Source: Oceanobacillus halotolerans (GTDB lineage Bacteria > Bacillota > Bacilli > Bacillales > Amphibacillaceae). Taken from it: 64,000 nt of DNA. This document shows positions 2,530 to 52,910 of this stretch, in pieces. Made by a program: the position numbers and the translations under genes. How positions within the stretch are numbered: position 1 is the first letter of the stretch; each line of letters begins with the position of its first letter. Below the pieces are notes generated by a model that searched no databases, was not told the DNA's origin, and was given only the letters and a program-made list of their open reading frames with translations. The stretch lies in contig NZ_WIXL01000002.1 in NCBI RefSeq assembly GCF_010993955.1, positions 124,001-188,000 on the forward strand, given 5' to 3'.

Positions 2530-2572
2530 TTAAAAAGGGTTTATAGCTTGGAAAAAAGCTATAAACCCTTCT
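2530..2572 (-). terminator. Intrinsic terminator of the spoVA operon
   Basis: A perfect 15-bp stem (AAGGGTTTATAGCTT at 2535-2549 against 2556-2570) is followed on the minus strand by a T run. The TAG stop codon of spoVAF (2559-2561) lies inside the stem. The group II intron remnant starts about 14 bases after the stem. Confidence 0.88.
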
Positions 2573-4052
2573 TTTTGGAAGGCTGACTATAATTGTTCTT
2601 AGGGTGAACAATACTTGGTCTGCTATTGGACAGAGGTACGGGAATACGAATTAAAATGTGTAGAAATGCTTTTGCGTTAAATGGCAAAAACGGCCATAAA
2701 TATGGTGTTTTTAAAGACTTTAAGCTTGCTAAAAACAGAAAGTATATAGTAACACCAATTAGAAAGCCGTATATGCCAAATAGCCCTGTCACAATAAGAA
2801 GGATGATACGAACCAAACGATTTGCAACACTTAACTCATAACTAGGTGTTACATACGTTCCAATTGCACTTATCGCTATATATAAAATAGCTTCTGGGCT
2901 AAGCATACCTACCTGAATTGCAATTTCACCAATTAATACGGCTGCAATTAAGCCCATTGATGTTGCTAATGGGGTAGGTGTATGGATCGCCGCCATACGT
3001 AGGAATTCGATTCCCAAATCCGCTAATATAAGTTGTATGACGATTGGTATATTTCCCTCGTCGTTTGGTCCAATGAACGATAATGGTTGCGGTAATAAAG
3101 AAGGCTCCATTGTAAATAAAAGCCATAATGGTAATAAAAACATGGATGCTAAAATAGCTAGAAACCTTGTCCATCTAATAAATGTACCTATAGCAGGTGC
3201 TTGACGAAATTCTTCTGCATGTTGTAAATGATGAAAATAAGTAGTTGGTAAAATAATGACACTCGGTGATGTATCCACAATAATCAAAACATGTCCTTCC
3301 AATAAATGATTCGCAGCAACATCAGGTCTTTCCGTGTATCTTACAAACGGAAATGGGTTCCATCCACGCTGAACCAGAAATTCATCCAACGTTTTATCTG
3401 CCATCGCAATCCCATCAATTTCGATCGATTCAATTTCTTCCTTTATTAATTGAACCAAGCCATCATCGGCAATATCACTAACATAGCTTAGACAAACGTC
3501 TGTTTTTGAACGCTCTCCTACTTTAAGCATCTCATGACGTAATCGTTCATCTCGAATCCTTCTTCTTGTTAAAGCAGTGTTTTCAATAATATTTTCCGTA
3601 TATCCGTCACGGGAACCACGGACAACATGCTCTGTATCTGGCTCCTCTGGACTACGACCTGGATAACTCCTTACATCAACAACAAATGCTTGTTTTTCTC
3701 CATCAACAAAAACAATAATTAAACCAGAAAGCATTTGATCTACTGCTTCATCCATTGATTCAATGGCATTAACTTGTTGATGTACTAAACGATTTTCTAG
3801 AATTTCTGGTAATTTTTTTGAGTTCGATTCATGGTCATTAATTTCAATTAATTTTTCCATTAATTCTACAATAATCGCAGAATCACACAAACCAGTTAAA
3901 TAATATAGGTGTATTTTTTTCTTTAAAACAGTCAATTCTCGAGAACCAACATCAAAGGAAACATCTAGTCCTACTCGTTCCTGCATATATGCTTTGTTTT
4001 CTTGAATGGTTGGAGAAATTGCTGTGCTTTTTGTTTTTTTTCGTCTCAACAT
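2559..4052 (-). CDS. spoVAF: Stage V sporulation protein AF, GerA-type membrane protein
   Basis: About 497 residues. A soluble N-terminal half of roughly 280 residues contains the GerA A-subunit signature region (VDVRSYPGRSPEEPDTE, VVRGSRDGYTEN, NTALTRRRIRD). A C-terminal half with about five hydrophobic segments contains PTPLATSMGLIAAVLIGE. This is the SpoVAF/GerA family, inner spore membrane proteins linked to dipicolinate release and germination. The start at 4052 (MLRRKK) has GATGGAG upstream; an in-frame ATG at 4070 is also possible. In B. subtilis four or more genes lie between spoVAB and spoVAF; here only about 50 bp separates them. Its stop codon is embedded in the operon terminator. 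Confidence 0.92.
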   Translation of the reverse strand: MLRRKKTKSTAISPTIQENKAYMQERVGLDVSFDVGSRELTVLKKKIHLYYLTGLCDSAIIVELMEKLIEINDHESNSKKLPEILENRLVHQQVNAIESMDEAVDQMLSGLIIVFVDGEKQAFVVDVRSYPGRSPEEPDTEHVVRGSRDGYTENIIENTALTRRRIRDERLRHEMLKVGERSKTDVCLSYVSDIADDGLVQLIKEEIESIEIDGIAMADKTLDEFLVQRGWNPFPFVRYTERPDVAANHLLEGHVLIIVDTSPSVIILPTTYFHHLQHAEEFRQAPAIGTFIRWTRFLAILASMFLLPLWLLFTMEPSLLPQPLSFIGPNDEGNIPIVIQLILADLGIEFLRMAAIHTPTPLATSMGLIAAVLIGEIAIQVGMLSPEAILYIAISAIGTYVTPSYELSVANRLVRIILLIVTGLFGIYGFLIGVTIYFLFLASLKSLKTPYLWPFLPFNAKAFLHILIRIPVPLSNSRPSIVHPKNNYSQPSKKKGL

Positions 4053-4101
4053 AACACACTCCATCTTCACAAACTAAAATACAAGCGTAATTTTGAGTAA
4101 A

Positions 4102-4530
4102 TTATCGGACAAAAAATGTCCACTGAAATAGAGAACCAGTGATTTTTCCGAATACAATAGCCATAAATAACCAGACTATTTTGTCGTCTATTCCAATTCG
4201 TTTCGATAAAATTGGAAAAACATTTATCACTTCTGTTAAGGCTGCAGCAAGCATCCCATTAAAAATACCATGAAGCACACCCCAAATTATTAATAGTAAT
4301 TCAGGATGATTCCATGTAACATTCGTAAAAGATAAAAACGTTCCAAATATGGAACCTATTATGATGCACGCAGTATAAACTTTGATATATGCTTCTGATC
4401 TTGTTAATTGTATTAATCGAGGAATAATCCCTAACAATGTTAAAAATGCAACAAATCCAGCGCCCACCGCAAGACCACCAGCGAAACCGACTACTATTTC
4501 CACTCCGATTATAAGAAAATTACTTATCAT
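4102..4530 (-). CDS. spoVAB: Stage V sporulation protein AB
   Basis: Integral membrane protein of 142 residues with about four hydrophobic segments. The conserved GFAGGLAVGAGFVAFLTLLG and the following IPRLIQLTRS match SpoVAB. The SpoVA proteins form or assist the dipicolinate channel of the spore inner membrane; the exact role of AB is not settled. Its ATG overlaps the end of spoVAA by 11 bp, typical of translational coupling. The next gene in the usual order, spoVAC, is missing and spoVAF follows directly. Family assignment is confident from sequence and position. Confidence 0.9.
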   Translation of the reverse strand: MISNFLIIGVEIVVGFAGGLAVGAGFVAFLTLLGIIPRLIQLTRSEAYIKVYTACIIIGSIFGTFLSFTNVTWNHPELLLIIWGVLHGIFNGMLAAALTEVINVFPILSKRIGIDDKIVWLFMAIVFGKITGSLFQWTFFVR

Positions 4531-5125
4531 TTATCCTATTTTCATAATGGGTTAAGTATTGGTCTAAGTTTTGCTGGTAGTTAAAAATCTCAACTTCTAA
4601 TGGACTCGGCTCTTCATTAATACGTTTTTTAAACCAATGATTAAAAAACAGAACCATTCCAAGTCCAAGTCCTAAAGAATATGGTATTTGAATCCATAAT
4701 GGAAATTCTTCCTCTTTTCCGGTTAAAATATAATGAAGCTTTTGCTGGACTTCTTGCATACTGACATCATAATGGAAATTCATAATGGTCATAGCAGCCC
4801 CAATAAATAAAAGTAACCACACAGCGGATACAAGTAAGATGGAAGCATTTTTCTTCGTTCGATTGATTCGTACAACGGTGTGTGGGGGACCTACTAATTG
4901 TATTTCGATATTTGGAAATAAACGATTTAAATGGTCAATTATTAAAAAACTATCGATAACGACAATATTTTTGTCCTTTTTTGAGACCCGATAAATTGGT
5001 GTTTTTTCCAATTCTTCTTTTTGCAAGGATGTTGTTGAGATGAAGGCTAGATCCTTAAGGGTTAAGCTTTCATATTTTTGTTGCTCCACATTCTTTTTCA
5101 TACGTAAATAAACTATTTCTTTCAT
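4520..5125 (-). CDS. spoVAA: Stage V sporulation protein AA
   Basis: 201 residues, close to the usual 206. A soluble N-terminal part of about 95 residues starts MKEIVYLRMKKNVEQQ and runs to HTVVRINRTKK; two hydrophobic segments follow (SILLVSAVWLLLFIGAAM and IPYSLGLGLGMVLFFNHW). SpoVAA is a forespore membrane protein of the dipicolinate uptake system. The start at 5125 has AAAGGATG upstream; an ATG at 5188 would run through the candidate SigG promoter and is unlikely. It is the first gene of the operon. In B. subtilis it follows sigF closely, but here a 0.7-kb repeat element and a terminator lie between, so it probably depends on its own SigG promoter. Confidence 0.9.
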   Translation of the reverse strand: MKEIVYLRMKKNVEQQKYESLTLKDLAFISTTSLQKEELEKTPIYRVSKKDKNIVVIDSFLIIDHLNRLFPNIEIQLVGPPHTVVRINRTKKNASILLVSAVWLLLFIGAAMTIMNFHYDVSMQEVQQKLHYILTGKEEEFPLWIQIPYSLGLGLGMVLFFNHWFKKRINEEPSPLEVEIFNYQQNLDQYLTHYENRINDK

Positions 5126-5154: not shown

Positions 5155-5184
5155 TAGTATTGGTTAAAACCATTATTTTTATCA
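5155..5184 (-). promoter_or_regulatory. Candidate SigG promoter of spoVAA
   Basis: Minus strand: TGATAA (5179-5184), 17 bp, then AATACTA (5155-5161). This is close to the SigG pattern (TGnATA, 17-18 bp, CATnnTA). Its place 30 bp upstream of the spoVAA start, just inside the edge of the inserted repeat element, fits forespore expression. Pattern match only. Confidence 0.5.
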
Positions 5185-5195
5185 GCATTTTTTAA

Positions 5196-5913
5196 GGTGG
5201 TTTTTTTAAAAGGATTGTAGCTTTCTAGTTCGAAACGTCATGCATATAAGATGTATTATGCGCAGTAGTTTAGCTTATGAATACTTCTACGGAAAAACAC
5301 TTCGCTTTCCGCGGGGGAGTGGTAAGCCTCCTCGGGCTATCGCCCTGTGGGGTCTCACCGATCTCCTACTTCCCGCAGGAGTCTCCGTGTTTTTCCTACG
5401 CTAGCTCGTGTTCGTGTTCTATTTCTTATTAATATCATCATTAATGCTAATACAATAGTTGATTGGAGCGTAGGACAGTCGACTCCTGCAGGAAAAGCAC
5501 GTGTCCAGACCTGAGCAGGAAGTGGTTTTGTTCCGATGTCTAGCTACAGCGCCTGCCCCCTCGAGGTCTTAAGTCAATCCTCTTTGTGGCAAAAAGCGCC
5601 ACACCGAGGCTCGGCTTAAGCTTGGCAGATAAGAAAAACTTTCTTACTTCATAAGTGCAACTAAGGCTTTCGCCACTCGGCGACAAGCCAAGTTTTCTAA
5701 TCGGGGGTGACCAAGGCACTTACGCTTTTCTATAGAGGAGGCTGAGGCCGTGCCTGCGGTAAAGAAGACACTGTGAAAACGTAAAGTTTGAACAGATGTC
5801 GCACTTATGCCCGTGGTGAAAGCGACTGTCCGAAGCGGAAATCAATGGCACCTTTTATTGCGCATTATATAGATTATGTACAGTAAAAAACAACAAAGTA
5901 TTCGAAAAGTGCC
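5196..5913. mobile_element. ORF-less MITE-like element, long copy 1
   Basis: 718 bp in the gap between sigF and spoVAA, visibly richer in G+C than its surroundings. Ends: left GGTGGTTTTTTTAAAAGG, right (reverse complement) GGCACTTTTCGAATACTTTG, the two end types shared by the family. Just inside both ends is ATTATGCGCAGTAG-like sequence. Inside: a palindromic module near 5288-5400 (GGAAAAACAC at 5291-5300 against GTGTTTTTCC at 5387-5396), a hairpin module near 5537-5735 (CTTAAGTCAATCCTC against GAGGCTCGGCTTAAG), and a third module near 5755-5840. Unlike the other long copies I see no matching 8-bp flanking repeat, so its ends may have been exchanged by recombination. No gene inside. Confidence 0.75.
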
Positions 5914-8917: not shown

Positions 8918-9633
8918 GGCTGTTTTCTAAAAGCTTTCTAATTGGAAAACGTCGTGCATATAAGATGGATTATGCGCAATAGTTTTATCTATGAATACCG
9001 CTACGGAAATACACTACGCTTTCACCAGGGGCATAAGTGCGACATCTGTTCAAACTGTTCGTTTTCACAGTGTCTACTTTACCGCAGGCACGGCCTCAGC
9101 CTCCTCTATAGAAAAGCGTAAGTGCCTTGGTCACCCCCGATTAGAAAACTTGGCTTGTCGCCGAGTGGCGAAAGCCTTAGTTGCACTTATGCAGTAAGAA
9201 AGTTTTTCTTATCTGCCAAGCTTAAGCCGAGCCTCGGTGTGGCGCTTTTTGCCACAAAGAGGATTGACTTAAGACCTCGAGGGGGTAGGCGCTGTAGCTA
9301 GACATCGGAAGAAAACCACTTCCTGCTCAAGTCTTCGGACACGTGCTTTTCCTGCAGGAGTCGACTGTCCTACGCTCCAATTAATTATCGTAAAATACAA
9401 TATATATAATAGGAAATATTGATCATATCAGTGGAGGAAATACACGGAGACTCCTGCGGGAAGAATGGCCTAGATGAGACCCCGCAGAGCGAAAGCTCGA
9501 GGAGGCTCAACAGCCACCCGCGGAAAGCGAAGTGTATTTCCGGAACGGGTAAACGTGCTAAACATCGCCTTAACTTACTGCGCATTATATGGATTATGTT
9601 CAATAGAAAACGACAAAGTATGCGAAAAGAGCC
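8918..9633. mobile_element. ORF-less MITE-like element, long copy 2, with 8-bp target repeat
   Basis: 716 bp between pdp and dacF. Left end GGCTGTTTTCTAAAAG; right end (reverse complement) GGCTCTTTTCGCATACTTTG. The direct repeat TAGTAAAA flanks it exactly (8910-8917 and 9634-9641). The internal modules match copy 1 but in reversed order and orientation: third module near 9020-9085, hairpin module near 9105-9300, palindromic module near 9430-9545. The right target repeat overlaps the pdp terminator stem. No gene inside; the short open frames on the plus strand are repeat sequence. Confidence 0.8.
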
Positions 9634-20575: not shown

Positions 20576-21382
20576 GGCTCTTTTCGCATACTTTGTTGTT
20601 TTCTACGACGCATAATCTATATAATGTGCAGTAGTTAGGATATGCACATAGCCTCGCTACGGAAAAACACTACGCTTTCACCAGGGGCATAAATGCGACA
20701 TCTGTTCAAACTGTTCGTTTTCACAGTGTCTACTTTACCGCGGGAGAGTGTTTTTCCTCCGCTAAGTTATGCTGCACTCAATTTAATCATTACTATTGAC
20801 AATATAACAGTTGATCGAAGCGAATGATAGACATTGTCAATATTGCGTCTTTTTAATTTAGAAAACTATTCGAAGCTGTGGAAAATGCGAGACTCCTACG
20901 GGAAAAGGAGCAGTCTGAAGACCCCACAGCGAGCGCTTTTTAGTAGAAAAGAGAAAGCGCCTTGATCACCCCCGATTAGAAAACTTGGCTTTTCGCCAAA
21001 TGGCGAAAGCCTTAGTTGCACTTATGCAGTAAGAAAGTTTTTCTTATCTGCCAAGCTTAAGCCGAGCCTCGGCGTGGCGTTTTGTTCCACAGAGAGGATT
21101 GACTTAAGACCTCGAGGGGGTAGGCGCTGAATCTAGACATGGCTCGCGAGGAGGCTGAAGCGTTCCCCGAGGGAAAGAAAACACTGTGAAAACGACCGTT
21201 GGGAGTTTGAACAGATGTTGCCCTTGTGCCCATGGTGAAAGCGAGTGTTTTCCACAGCGTGGGTATAGCACTCACTTTATAAAGGATGAAGGAAGCCATG
21301 CTAAACAGTTACTACGCATAATACATCAACTATGCATTATGATTTATACTTGAAAAAAGCAACAATCTTTTAGAAAACAGCC
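20576..21382. mobile_element. ORF-less MITE-like element, long copy 3, with 8-bp flanking repeat
   Basis: 807 bp between polY2 and the dehydrogenase. Left end GGCTCTTTTCGCATACTTTG; right end (reverse complement) GGCTGTTTTCTAAAAGATTG. It is flanked by TTTTAAAA on both sides (20568-20575 and 21383-21390). The left arm is a hybrid of the palindromic and third modules (about 20655-20765), the hairpin module follows (about 20930-21140), and an inverted third module is at about 21180-21250. Sequence after the right flank (AAAGATTGTTGCTTTTGAAT) again resembles a family end, so the copy may be nested in an older one. No gene is recognisable in 20478-21586. Confidence 0.75.
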
Positions 21383-32248: not shown

Positions 32249-33053
32249 GACTGTTTTCTAAAAGGTTGTTGTTTTCAGGTATGAAACGTCATGCATATAA
32301 GATAGATGATGCGCAGTAGCCCTTGCATTACCTGCTGATATTACCGCTACGGAAATACACTTCGCTTTCCGTGGGTGGCTGGTGAGCCTCCTCGTGCTAA
32401 CCGCACTGCGGGGTCTCACCTATACCGCTGCTCCCACAGGAGTCTCCGTGTATTTCCTTCGCTAAATTGAGATGTTCTAATTTTAATCATTAATATTGAC
32501 AATGCACAATTGATTCAAGCGGATAATAGACACATTTGGTTACAGTACCTTATTACTTGTTAGTTAAACTATTCAAAGCAGCGGAAAATGCAAGATTCCT
32601 ACGGGAAAAGGAACAGTCTGAAGACCCCACAGCGAGCGTACTTTGCTCGCGATGTCTAACTTCAGCGCCTACACCCTCGAGGTCTTAAGTCAATCCTCTT
32701 TGTGGCAAAAGCCGCCACACCGAGGATTGGCTTAAGCTTGGCAGATAAGAAAAAACTTACTGCATAAGTGCAACTAAGGCTTTCGCCGCTTGGCGACAAG
32801 CCAAGTTTTCTAATCGGGTGTGACCAAGGCGCTTACGTTTTTCTATGAGGAGGCTGAAGCGTTCCCCGAGGGAAAGAAAACACTGTGAAAACGACTGTTG
32901 GGAGTTTGAACAGATGTTGCCCTTGTGCCCATGGTGAAAGCGAGTGTTTTCCGCTGCGATGTTTAAGCACTCATCCTATTAAGGATGATTAAAACTACTG
33001 CGCATAATATACATTATGCGTCATAGAAAACAACAAAGTATGCGAAAAGTTCC
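32249..33053. mobile_element. ORF-less MITE-like element, long copy 4, with 8-bp target repeat
   Basis: 805 bp between the carboxylase and peptidase genes. Left end GACTGTTTTCTAAAAGGTTG; right end (reverse complement) GGAACTTTTCGCATACTTTG. It is flanked exactly by TAAGGTTA (32241-32248 and 33054-33061). Inside: palindromic module about 32340-32465, hairpin module about 32650-32850, third module about 32875-32955. The right target repeat contains the stop codon of the carboxylase gene (33059-33061). No gene is recognisable in 32226-33058. Confidence 0.8.
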
Positions 33054-52574: not shown

Positions 52575-52910
52575 AGAACAAAAGCTAGAAGTACTTTGAT
52601 CACTCCCGGTTAAAAACTTGGCTTGTCGCCAAGTCCTTATGGCGAAAACTTTAGTTGCACTTATGCAGTAGGACCGTTGTCTTTCTTATTTGCCAAGCAT
52701 AATCCAAGCCTGGGGCGTGGTGCTTTTTACGCGTAATGTGGATTGACTTATGACCTTGAGGTGGTAGGCGCTGGCCGATGAAAACTCGGGCGTCCTTATG
52801 TCTAGAGGTACTAGGACATCCTATCCGTCTCACTGGCTAAAATCGTCACGTCAATCGCAACGCCAATACTAGGACATAAATGGCTCGAAGCTGACATGGC
52901 CTTTCCTATA
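52575..52910. repeat. Solo hairpin module related to the MITE-like family
   Basis: Carries the hairpin module without family ends: TTGATCACTCCCGGTTAAAA, ACTTGGCTTGTCGCCAAGTC, TTAGTTGCACTTATGCAGTA, GATTGACTTATGACCTTGAG and GTGGTAGGCGCTGG, then the TCGTCACGTCAATCGCAA module. It shows that this module can exist on its own. It fills much of the gap 52327-53000 between spo0A and spoIVB; the remainder holds the spo0A control region and the spoIVB terminator. Confidence 0.6.

Follow-up and report, generated by a model that had tools for sequence, protein, structure and literature searches.

In Oceanobacillus halotolerans, the spoVA1 operon has very probably been reduced to spoVAA, spoVAB and spoVAF (AA, AB and AF), with C1, D1 and Eb1 lost as redundant beside a spoVA2 operon, and with AA/AB and the AF-FigP partnership kept. 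The pruned spoVA1 locus is real and widespread, and because a spoVA2-type operon lies elsewhere in the genome and the same pruning is common in relatives, the missing channel genes are explained. All of the genes involved are already known. Our argument draws on gene content, the genome-wide location of the missing genes, the split between D1 and D2 proteins, repeated change at the locus, the joint absence of AA and AB, and purifying selection; all functions, and loss as the direction of change, would follow by analogy with published work in Bacillus species.

We refer to the whole stretch of 64,000 nucleotides that was analysed as the window. On its minus strand, from 5125 to 2559, spoVAA, spoVAB and spoVAF lie together with no C, D, Eb or Ea gene among them. 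The features of this locus are as follows.

5155-5184, minus strand: possible forespore (sigma-G-like) promoter TGATA-N18-AATACTA before spoVAA (consensus scan)
4520-5125, minus strand: spoVAA (Pfam PF12164, 2.7e-18; alignment of 46 sequences)
4102-4530, minus strand: spoVAB (Pfam PF13782, 1.8e-35; alignment of 41 sequences)
4053-4101, minus strand: AB-AF junction, the site of C-D-Eb-Ea in a full operon, here a 49-bp spacer only (from the sequence)
2559-4052 (open reading frame to 4070), minus strand: spoVAF, GerA-family A subunit, intact (Pfam PF03323, 1.5e-160; orthologue after AB in 105 of 105 AB-bearing family genomes)
2535-2570, no strand assigned: inverted repeat of 15 pairs over the 3' end of spoVAF (pattern scan)

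The frames of all three genes are intact. The spoVAA reading frame is open as far as 5188, but a ribosome site precedes the start at 5125, which also agrees with relatives, and the spoVAF ATG at 4052 is preceded by a GGAG ribosome site. From the start of the window, the gene order is ppiB, lysA, spoVAF, spoVAB, spoVAA, sigF, spoIIAB, spoIIAA and dacF, all on the minus strand, where the genes outside spoVA carry the names that we take to be theirs from sequence and order. The locus has the AA, AB and AF genes of a spoVA1 operon, ordered between sigF and lysA, and lacks the C-D-Eb genes (and Ea) between AB and AF. As the earlier note had claimed, spoVAF directly follows spoVAB. This 49-bp gap, together with the lack of an Ea match in the genome and the presence of C, D and Eb only on another contig (C20), leads us to call the locus a reduced spoVA1 operon and not a full member.

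In the scan with the sigma-G consensus, the best site in the window was no better than shuffled sequence (0.66), and among the 81 upstream stretches examined, the window included, the best site had a shuffle fraction of 0.05 or less in 46. The inverted repeat is terminator-like only when scored on the plus strand, its T run being weak on the minus strand, and the scan for terminator-like patterns found 4 sites against an average of 3.1 in shuffles, which lends the repeat no statistical support. A group II intron fragment (Rfam RF02003, 83.2 bits) lies at 2360-2499 on the minus strand between spoVAF and lysA, beside a short reading frame that is presumably a maturase remnant. In addition, a large intergenic repeat occupies 5290-5824 between spoVAA and sigF, with copies or parts elsewhere in the window at 9017-9542 (90% identical), 32642-32947, 20944-21140, 52589-52773 and other positions.

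The first 91 residues of the predicted SpoVAA structure (mean pLDDT 84.1) resemble 3g74, a Eubacterium ventriosum protein whose function is unknown, with a VIA-align Z of 13.9 over 86 residues and an rmsd of 1.6. The resemblance to FlgA 3frn is weaker (Z of 7.8 over 69 residues, rmsd 2.3), and neither match yielded a clue to function. The SpoVAB model, which is of low confidence (69.2), had no PDB match at E under 1.

Profile models were used to search the whole genome of the organism (G000), a draft of 3.32 Mb in 24 contigs that is 99.66% complete. Two SpoVAC/AEb matches and one SpoVAD match were found, all at G000:C20:168039-169770, on a contig other than that of the window, and the SpoVAEa model gave no match at E <= 0.001 across the whole genome. 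The remote operon consists of seven open reading frames (L004:7198-10894), listed here in order.

Gene 1: DUF1657 (Pfam, 7.4e-23)
Gene 2: YhcN/YlaJ lipoprotein, NJ2 (Pfam Spore_YhcN_YlaJ, PF09580, 1.4e-6)
Gene 3: C (Pfam SpoVAC_SpoVAEB, 1.6e-40)
Gene 4: D (Pfam SpoVAD, 1e-156)
Gene 5: Eb (Pfam SpoVAC_SpoVAEB, 4.1e-38)
Gene 6: DUF1657 (Pfam, 4.1e-11)
Gene 7: DUF421+DUF1657 protein, 2Duf (Pfam DUF421, 1.1e-42; DUF1657, 7.9e-19)

This is the content of a spoVA2 operon, namely C, D and Eb with the NJ2 lipoprotein, DUF1657 proteins and 2Duf. The earlier note had suggested either a second C-D-Eb operon elsewhere, which the genome-wide search located, or a different means of dipicolinate uptake. Nothing supports the latter beyond the known spoVA2 channel, and given the presence of the spoVA2 set we reject it for this organism.

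In a tree of SpoVAD proteins, one fully supported branch parts 30 cis rows, which represent 29 different genes since L181 and L069 are the same gene, from 40 remote rows, which include the D of our organism; the remote region L176, in which D is split, yielded no row of sufficient length. Identity to our organism's D is 43-51% for cis proteins and 58-80% for remote proteins, and the solved SpoVAD structures score 446.7 (3lm6) and 464.9 bits against cis D, and 359.3 (3lm6) and 354.4 bits against its own D. The protein falls in the D2 clade, a label that rests on operon content, the tree being without any B. cereus sequence. The genome has D2 only.

SpoVAD was sought in 49 named genomes from 80 loci, with L066 left out, and was present in all 49, including all 30 without C-D-Eb at the AA-AB locus. 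The remote D region was read for each of these 30, which indicates that the short-form genomes examined have remote, D2-type channel genes. Two Terribacillus genomes show the reciprocal outcome, a single D located at the AA-AB locus. Other arrangements were also seen. In Bacillus aerolatus, B. wudalianchiensis and the Bacillales MAG Bu78 (L218, L219, L220, L160-L162), the channel is split across loci, with a C-Eb pair at one and D with DUF1657 and 2Duf-like genes at another. An operon in which D is the only channel gene, accompanied by DUF1657 and 2Duf-like genes, occurs in four Peribacillus-type genomes (L166, L168, L169, L173). Three of the four encode C-D-Eb separately as well, and in L168 (genome G147) the remaining C and D matches are fragmented.

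A survey of 120 genomes from the same family indicates how the locus varies among close relatives. SpoVAB is found in 105 genomes and SpoVAA in the same 105, and both are absent from exactly the same 15. The two genes lie within 1.5 kb of each other in 104 of the 105; in G025 they are on different contigs, with AA at a contig end. AF follows AB in every AB-bearing genome, and AB never occurs without AF after it. The AB-F form, with a short gap, accounts for 75 of the 105, our organism included, and its gap, measured from the end of the AB model match to the start of the AF match, is 24-89 bp in 67 genomes and 103-228 bp in 8. The AB-Ea-F form accounts for 22 genomes, in which a gap of 598-715 bp holds Ea, and the full operon for 8 genomes from a single genus (g16), which have an insert of 2.4 kb that was read as C-D-Eb-Ea in one genome (L221). 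Thus, in 97 of the 105 AA/AB-bearing genomes the space between AB and AF is too short for C-D-Eb, and AA/AB have outlasted the channel genes at the spoVA1 locus. AF in turn outlives AA/AB, as AB is never without AF and, in 9 of the 15 AA/AB-less genomes, AF is the only one of the three left between sigF and lysA; in a tenth genome, G074 (86% complete), the sole AF match is a weaker one (3.4e-97). The suggestion that AA, AB and AF are a separable unit is therefore upheld with respect to the channel genes and fails among the three themselves, and the nine genomes with AF alone rule out an inseparable unit.

Across the same 120 genomes, SpoVAC/AEb is present in 115, YqhR/FigP in 113, and a SpoVAF match at E <= 1e-90 in 115, with no such match in 5. 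SpoVAEa is present in 30 of the 120, in contrast with the statement, in the accessible part of PMC3533761, that spoVAEA is present in all Bacillaceae. Among the 15 genomes without AA/AB, 10 keep C/Eb, which indicates that AA/AB is dispensable in some genomes. YqhR persists in 8 of the 15, and a co-loss of AA/AB with FigP is unsupported. Our organism encodes YqhR/FigP (PF11085, 1.4e-63, C12:197915-198400), the partner of SpoVAF in the SpoVAF/FigP amplifier; AF occurs without a YqhR match in G008 and G050, so AF and FigP are not partners in every genome. A second, orphan SpoVAF-like protein of 485 aa (L215:5313-6770, G000:C12:223312-224769; GerA family, 1.3e-160) is 49% identical to SpoVAF and is encoded near a rhomboid-like gene. 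Many family genomes have a second SpoVAF-like match, with 48-52% identity among the matches listed. The reading frame at L215:4231-4488, of only 85 aa, is apparently broken or truncated, and we take it to be glucokinase-like by resemblance.

Published work in Bacillus provides a rationale for this pattern. For B. anthracis, the accessible text of PMC13059800 reports that spoVA2 alone is enough for dipicolinate import and that either channel is enough for release, that D1 and Eb1 mutants are similar to wild type, and that the germination defect of a spoVA1 deletion is reproduced by F1 and figP mutants. SpoVAF and YqhR (FigP) form an amplifying ion channel according to the accessible part of PMC11841064, and 2Duf, a DUF421+DUF1657 protein, is described for spoVA2mob in the abstract of PMC10126465. 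By analogy, we propose an ancestor that carried a full spoVA1 operon alongside a spoVA2 operon. The spoVA2 channel, with C2/Eb2 as the membrane channel, D2 as the plug and NJ2 as the cap, would move dipicolinate into and out of the spore core. C1-D1-Eb1 would then have been lost in the lineage of our organism because it was redundant beside this channel, SpoVAEa would have been lost too, and channel-gene loss would have happened several times. AF would have been retained because its job, amplifying the germinant-receptor signal as an ion channel with FigP (YqhR), is independent of which dipicolinate channel responds. AA and AB would have been retained to restrain too-early germination, or to tune the response, for whichever channel is present.

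The retention of AA and AB could also mean that, in short-form species, they belong to the spoVA2 channel as additional subunits, in an AA-AB-C2-D2-Eb2-NJ2 complex. AA/AB are kept where only remote, D2-type channel genes are found, and AA or AB deletions impair dipicolinate transport in B. subtilis, as the accessible part of PMC11841064 has it. However, the same source reports that loss of AA or AB leads to premature germination and that gerA deletion suppresses this defect, the accessible text of PMC13059800 gives C2, D2, Eb2 and NJ2 as the components of the spoVA2 complex in the B. cereus group, and C/Eb is still found in the 10 AA/AB-less family genomes noted above. We consider extra subunits unlikely. 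A tentative proposal, which we regard as possible, is that SpoVAA and SpoVAB may form an obligate pair whose role is to restrain or gate germinant signalling at GerA and AF-FigP, alongside any C/D/Eb channel, and may not be parts of the dipicolinate transporter. Gating by such a pair would explain why AA/AB occur only with AF beside AB (105 of 105), why their absence is paired, and why they outlive the channel genes in many families.

Beyond the family, we compared 80 named loci, which are the best 80 by similarity to SpoVAB and not an even sample. The 79 with AB and AF divide into 28 that lack core and Ea alike, 23 with Ea but no core, 15 with C-D-Eb but no Ea, and 13 with the complete set. 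The window adds a 29th row to the first group, and L073 is cut by a contig end. Peribacillus, Rossellomorea and Sediminibacillus typically have Ea without the core, and Halobacillus and its kin typically have C-D-Eb without Ea. The AB-F form is found in Oceanobacillus, Virgibacillus and Gracilibacillus and, separately, in Bacillus aerolatus and B. wudalianchiensis, and the full order, before lysA or between sigF and AF, in Terribacillus, Pontibacillus, Priestia, Metabacillus and Gottfriedia. On a locus tree of 80 rows (FastTree, some long branches), the core label changes 5 times and the Ea label 7 times, and starred branches alone force 4 changes for the AB-F group, all of these counts being undirected, with loss and gain indistinguishable. 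The window and 21 named loci, all with the AB-F form, make up a set of 22 rows that has full support. In an order-level sample of 140 genomes, 130 have AB, and none of the 130 is without D. The position of D, taken without regard to contig ends near AB, was decidable in 95 and undecided in 35, for which the list of match positions was cut short; D adjoins AB in 59 of the 95 and lies only elsewhere in 36, which represent 17 family codes by hand count. In 3 of the 59, D is present with no room for C, standing alone between AB and AF (AA-AB-D-F; L222, L223, L224).

These comparisons bear on whether the short form is ancestral, with the full operon arising by insertion of C-D-Eb-Ea between AB and AF; the earlier note had raised an ancestral short form as a challenge. 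The short form is indeed normal in the family (75 AB-F and 22 AB-Ea-F genomes vs 8 full), and the undirected tree counts would accommodate such an origin. However, the full order occurs at the same place in the distant Bacillales genera Terribacillus, Pontibacillus, Priestia, Metabacillus and Gottfriedia, and the D proteins of full loci lie on one side of one branch, such that repeated identical insertions would be needed. We consider an ancestral short form very unlikely; the D1-type C-D-Eb at the same place in Terribacillus, Halobacillus and kin, and other Bacillales points to loss.

Selection on the remaining genes was assessed by dN/dS in 16 species pairs, 11 core-less and 5 core-bearing, leaving saturated cells or those with a stop in the aligned stretch unscored. 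Where computable, core-less pairs gave 0.035-0.087 for AA, 0.018-0.189 for AB (8 pairs) and 0.034-0.070 for AF, and core-bearing pairs gave 0-0.036 for AA, 0.010-0.039 for AB (4 pairs) and 0.024-0.030 for AF. AA, AB and AF are under purifying selection, and the somewhat faster AB in core-less pairs may reflect relaxed constraint. This raised AB rate would also fit a functionless, decaying remnant kept by chance between sigF and lysA, as would the graded loss, at the far end of which 9 genomes have only AF left and 5 of 120 give no AF match at E <= 1e-90. Such decay is nonetheless highly improbable given three intact frames, dN/dS far below 1 where computable, the keeping of AA, AB and AF in 97 core-less family genomes, and the keeping of AB without an adjoining D in 17 families of the order sample. 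An assembly error at the AB-AF junction can be dismissed, as nothing was found in its favour, although the genome is a 24-contig draft, and comparison with relatives shows the AB-F junction recurring in 74 other family genomes and throughout the fully supported set of 22 tree rows.

The spoVA locus is commonly regarded as a single operon for dipicolinate transport. The series from the full locus through AA-AB-Ea-F and AA-AB-F to F alone splits it into modules, which are the channel (C-D-Eb), Ea, the AA/AB pair, and AF. Genomes in which only a remote, spoVA2-type channel is found often retain the AA/AB pair and AF, and this pattern provides a comparative argument on the role of the poorly understood AA and AB. 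It also names short-form genera in which the role of AA/AB is testable without resident C1, D1 and Eb1. We found no report of graded spoVA pruning in the best-ranked titles and abstracts (up to 20 per search) of the literature searched, supplements and most subscription journals being outside its coverage.

The spoVA operon of B. subtilis is of the spoVA1 type (AA-AB-C-D-Eb-Ea-F) and lies between sigF and lysA. The window locus has the same order of AA, AB and AF and the same place, and differs in being without C, D, Eb and Ea. The remote seven-gene operon resembles the spoVA2 operon of the B. cereus group and the spoVA2mob operon of B. subtilis group strains in gene content, including the positions of the DUF1657 genes. 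In our organism C-D-Eb is encoded by the spoVA2-type operon only. According to the accessible text of PMC13059800, B. anthracis and the B. cereus group differ in also keeping a full spoVA1. For the SpoVAF/FigP amplifier, both SpoVAF and a YqhR-family protein are encoded in the genome, where the amplifier is a predicted one, and the difference is that AF lies apart from any C-D-Eb genes.
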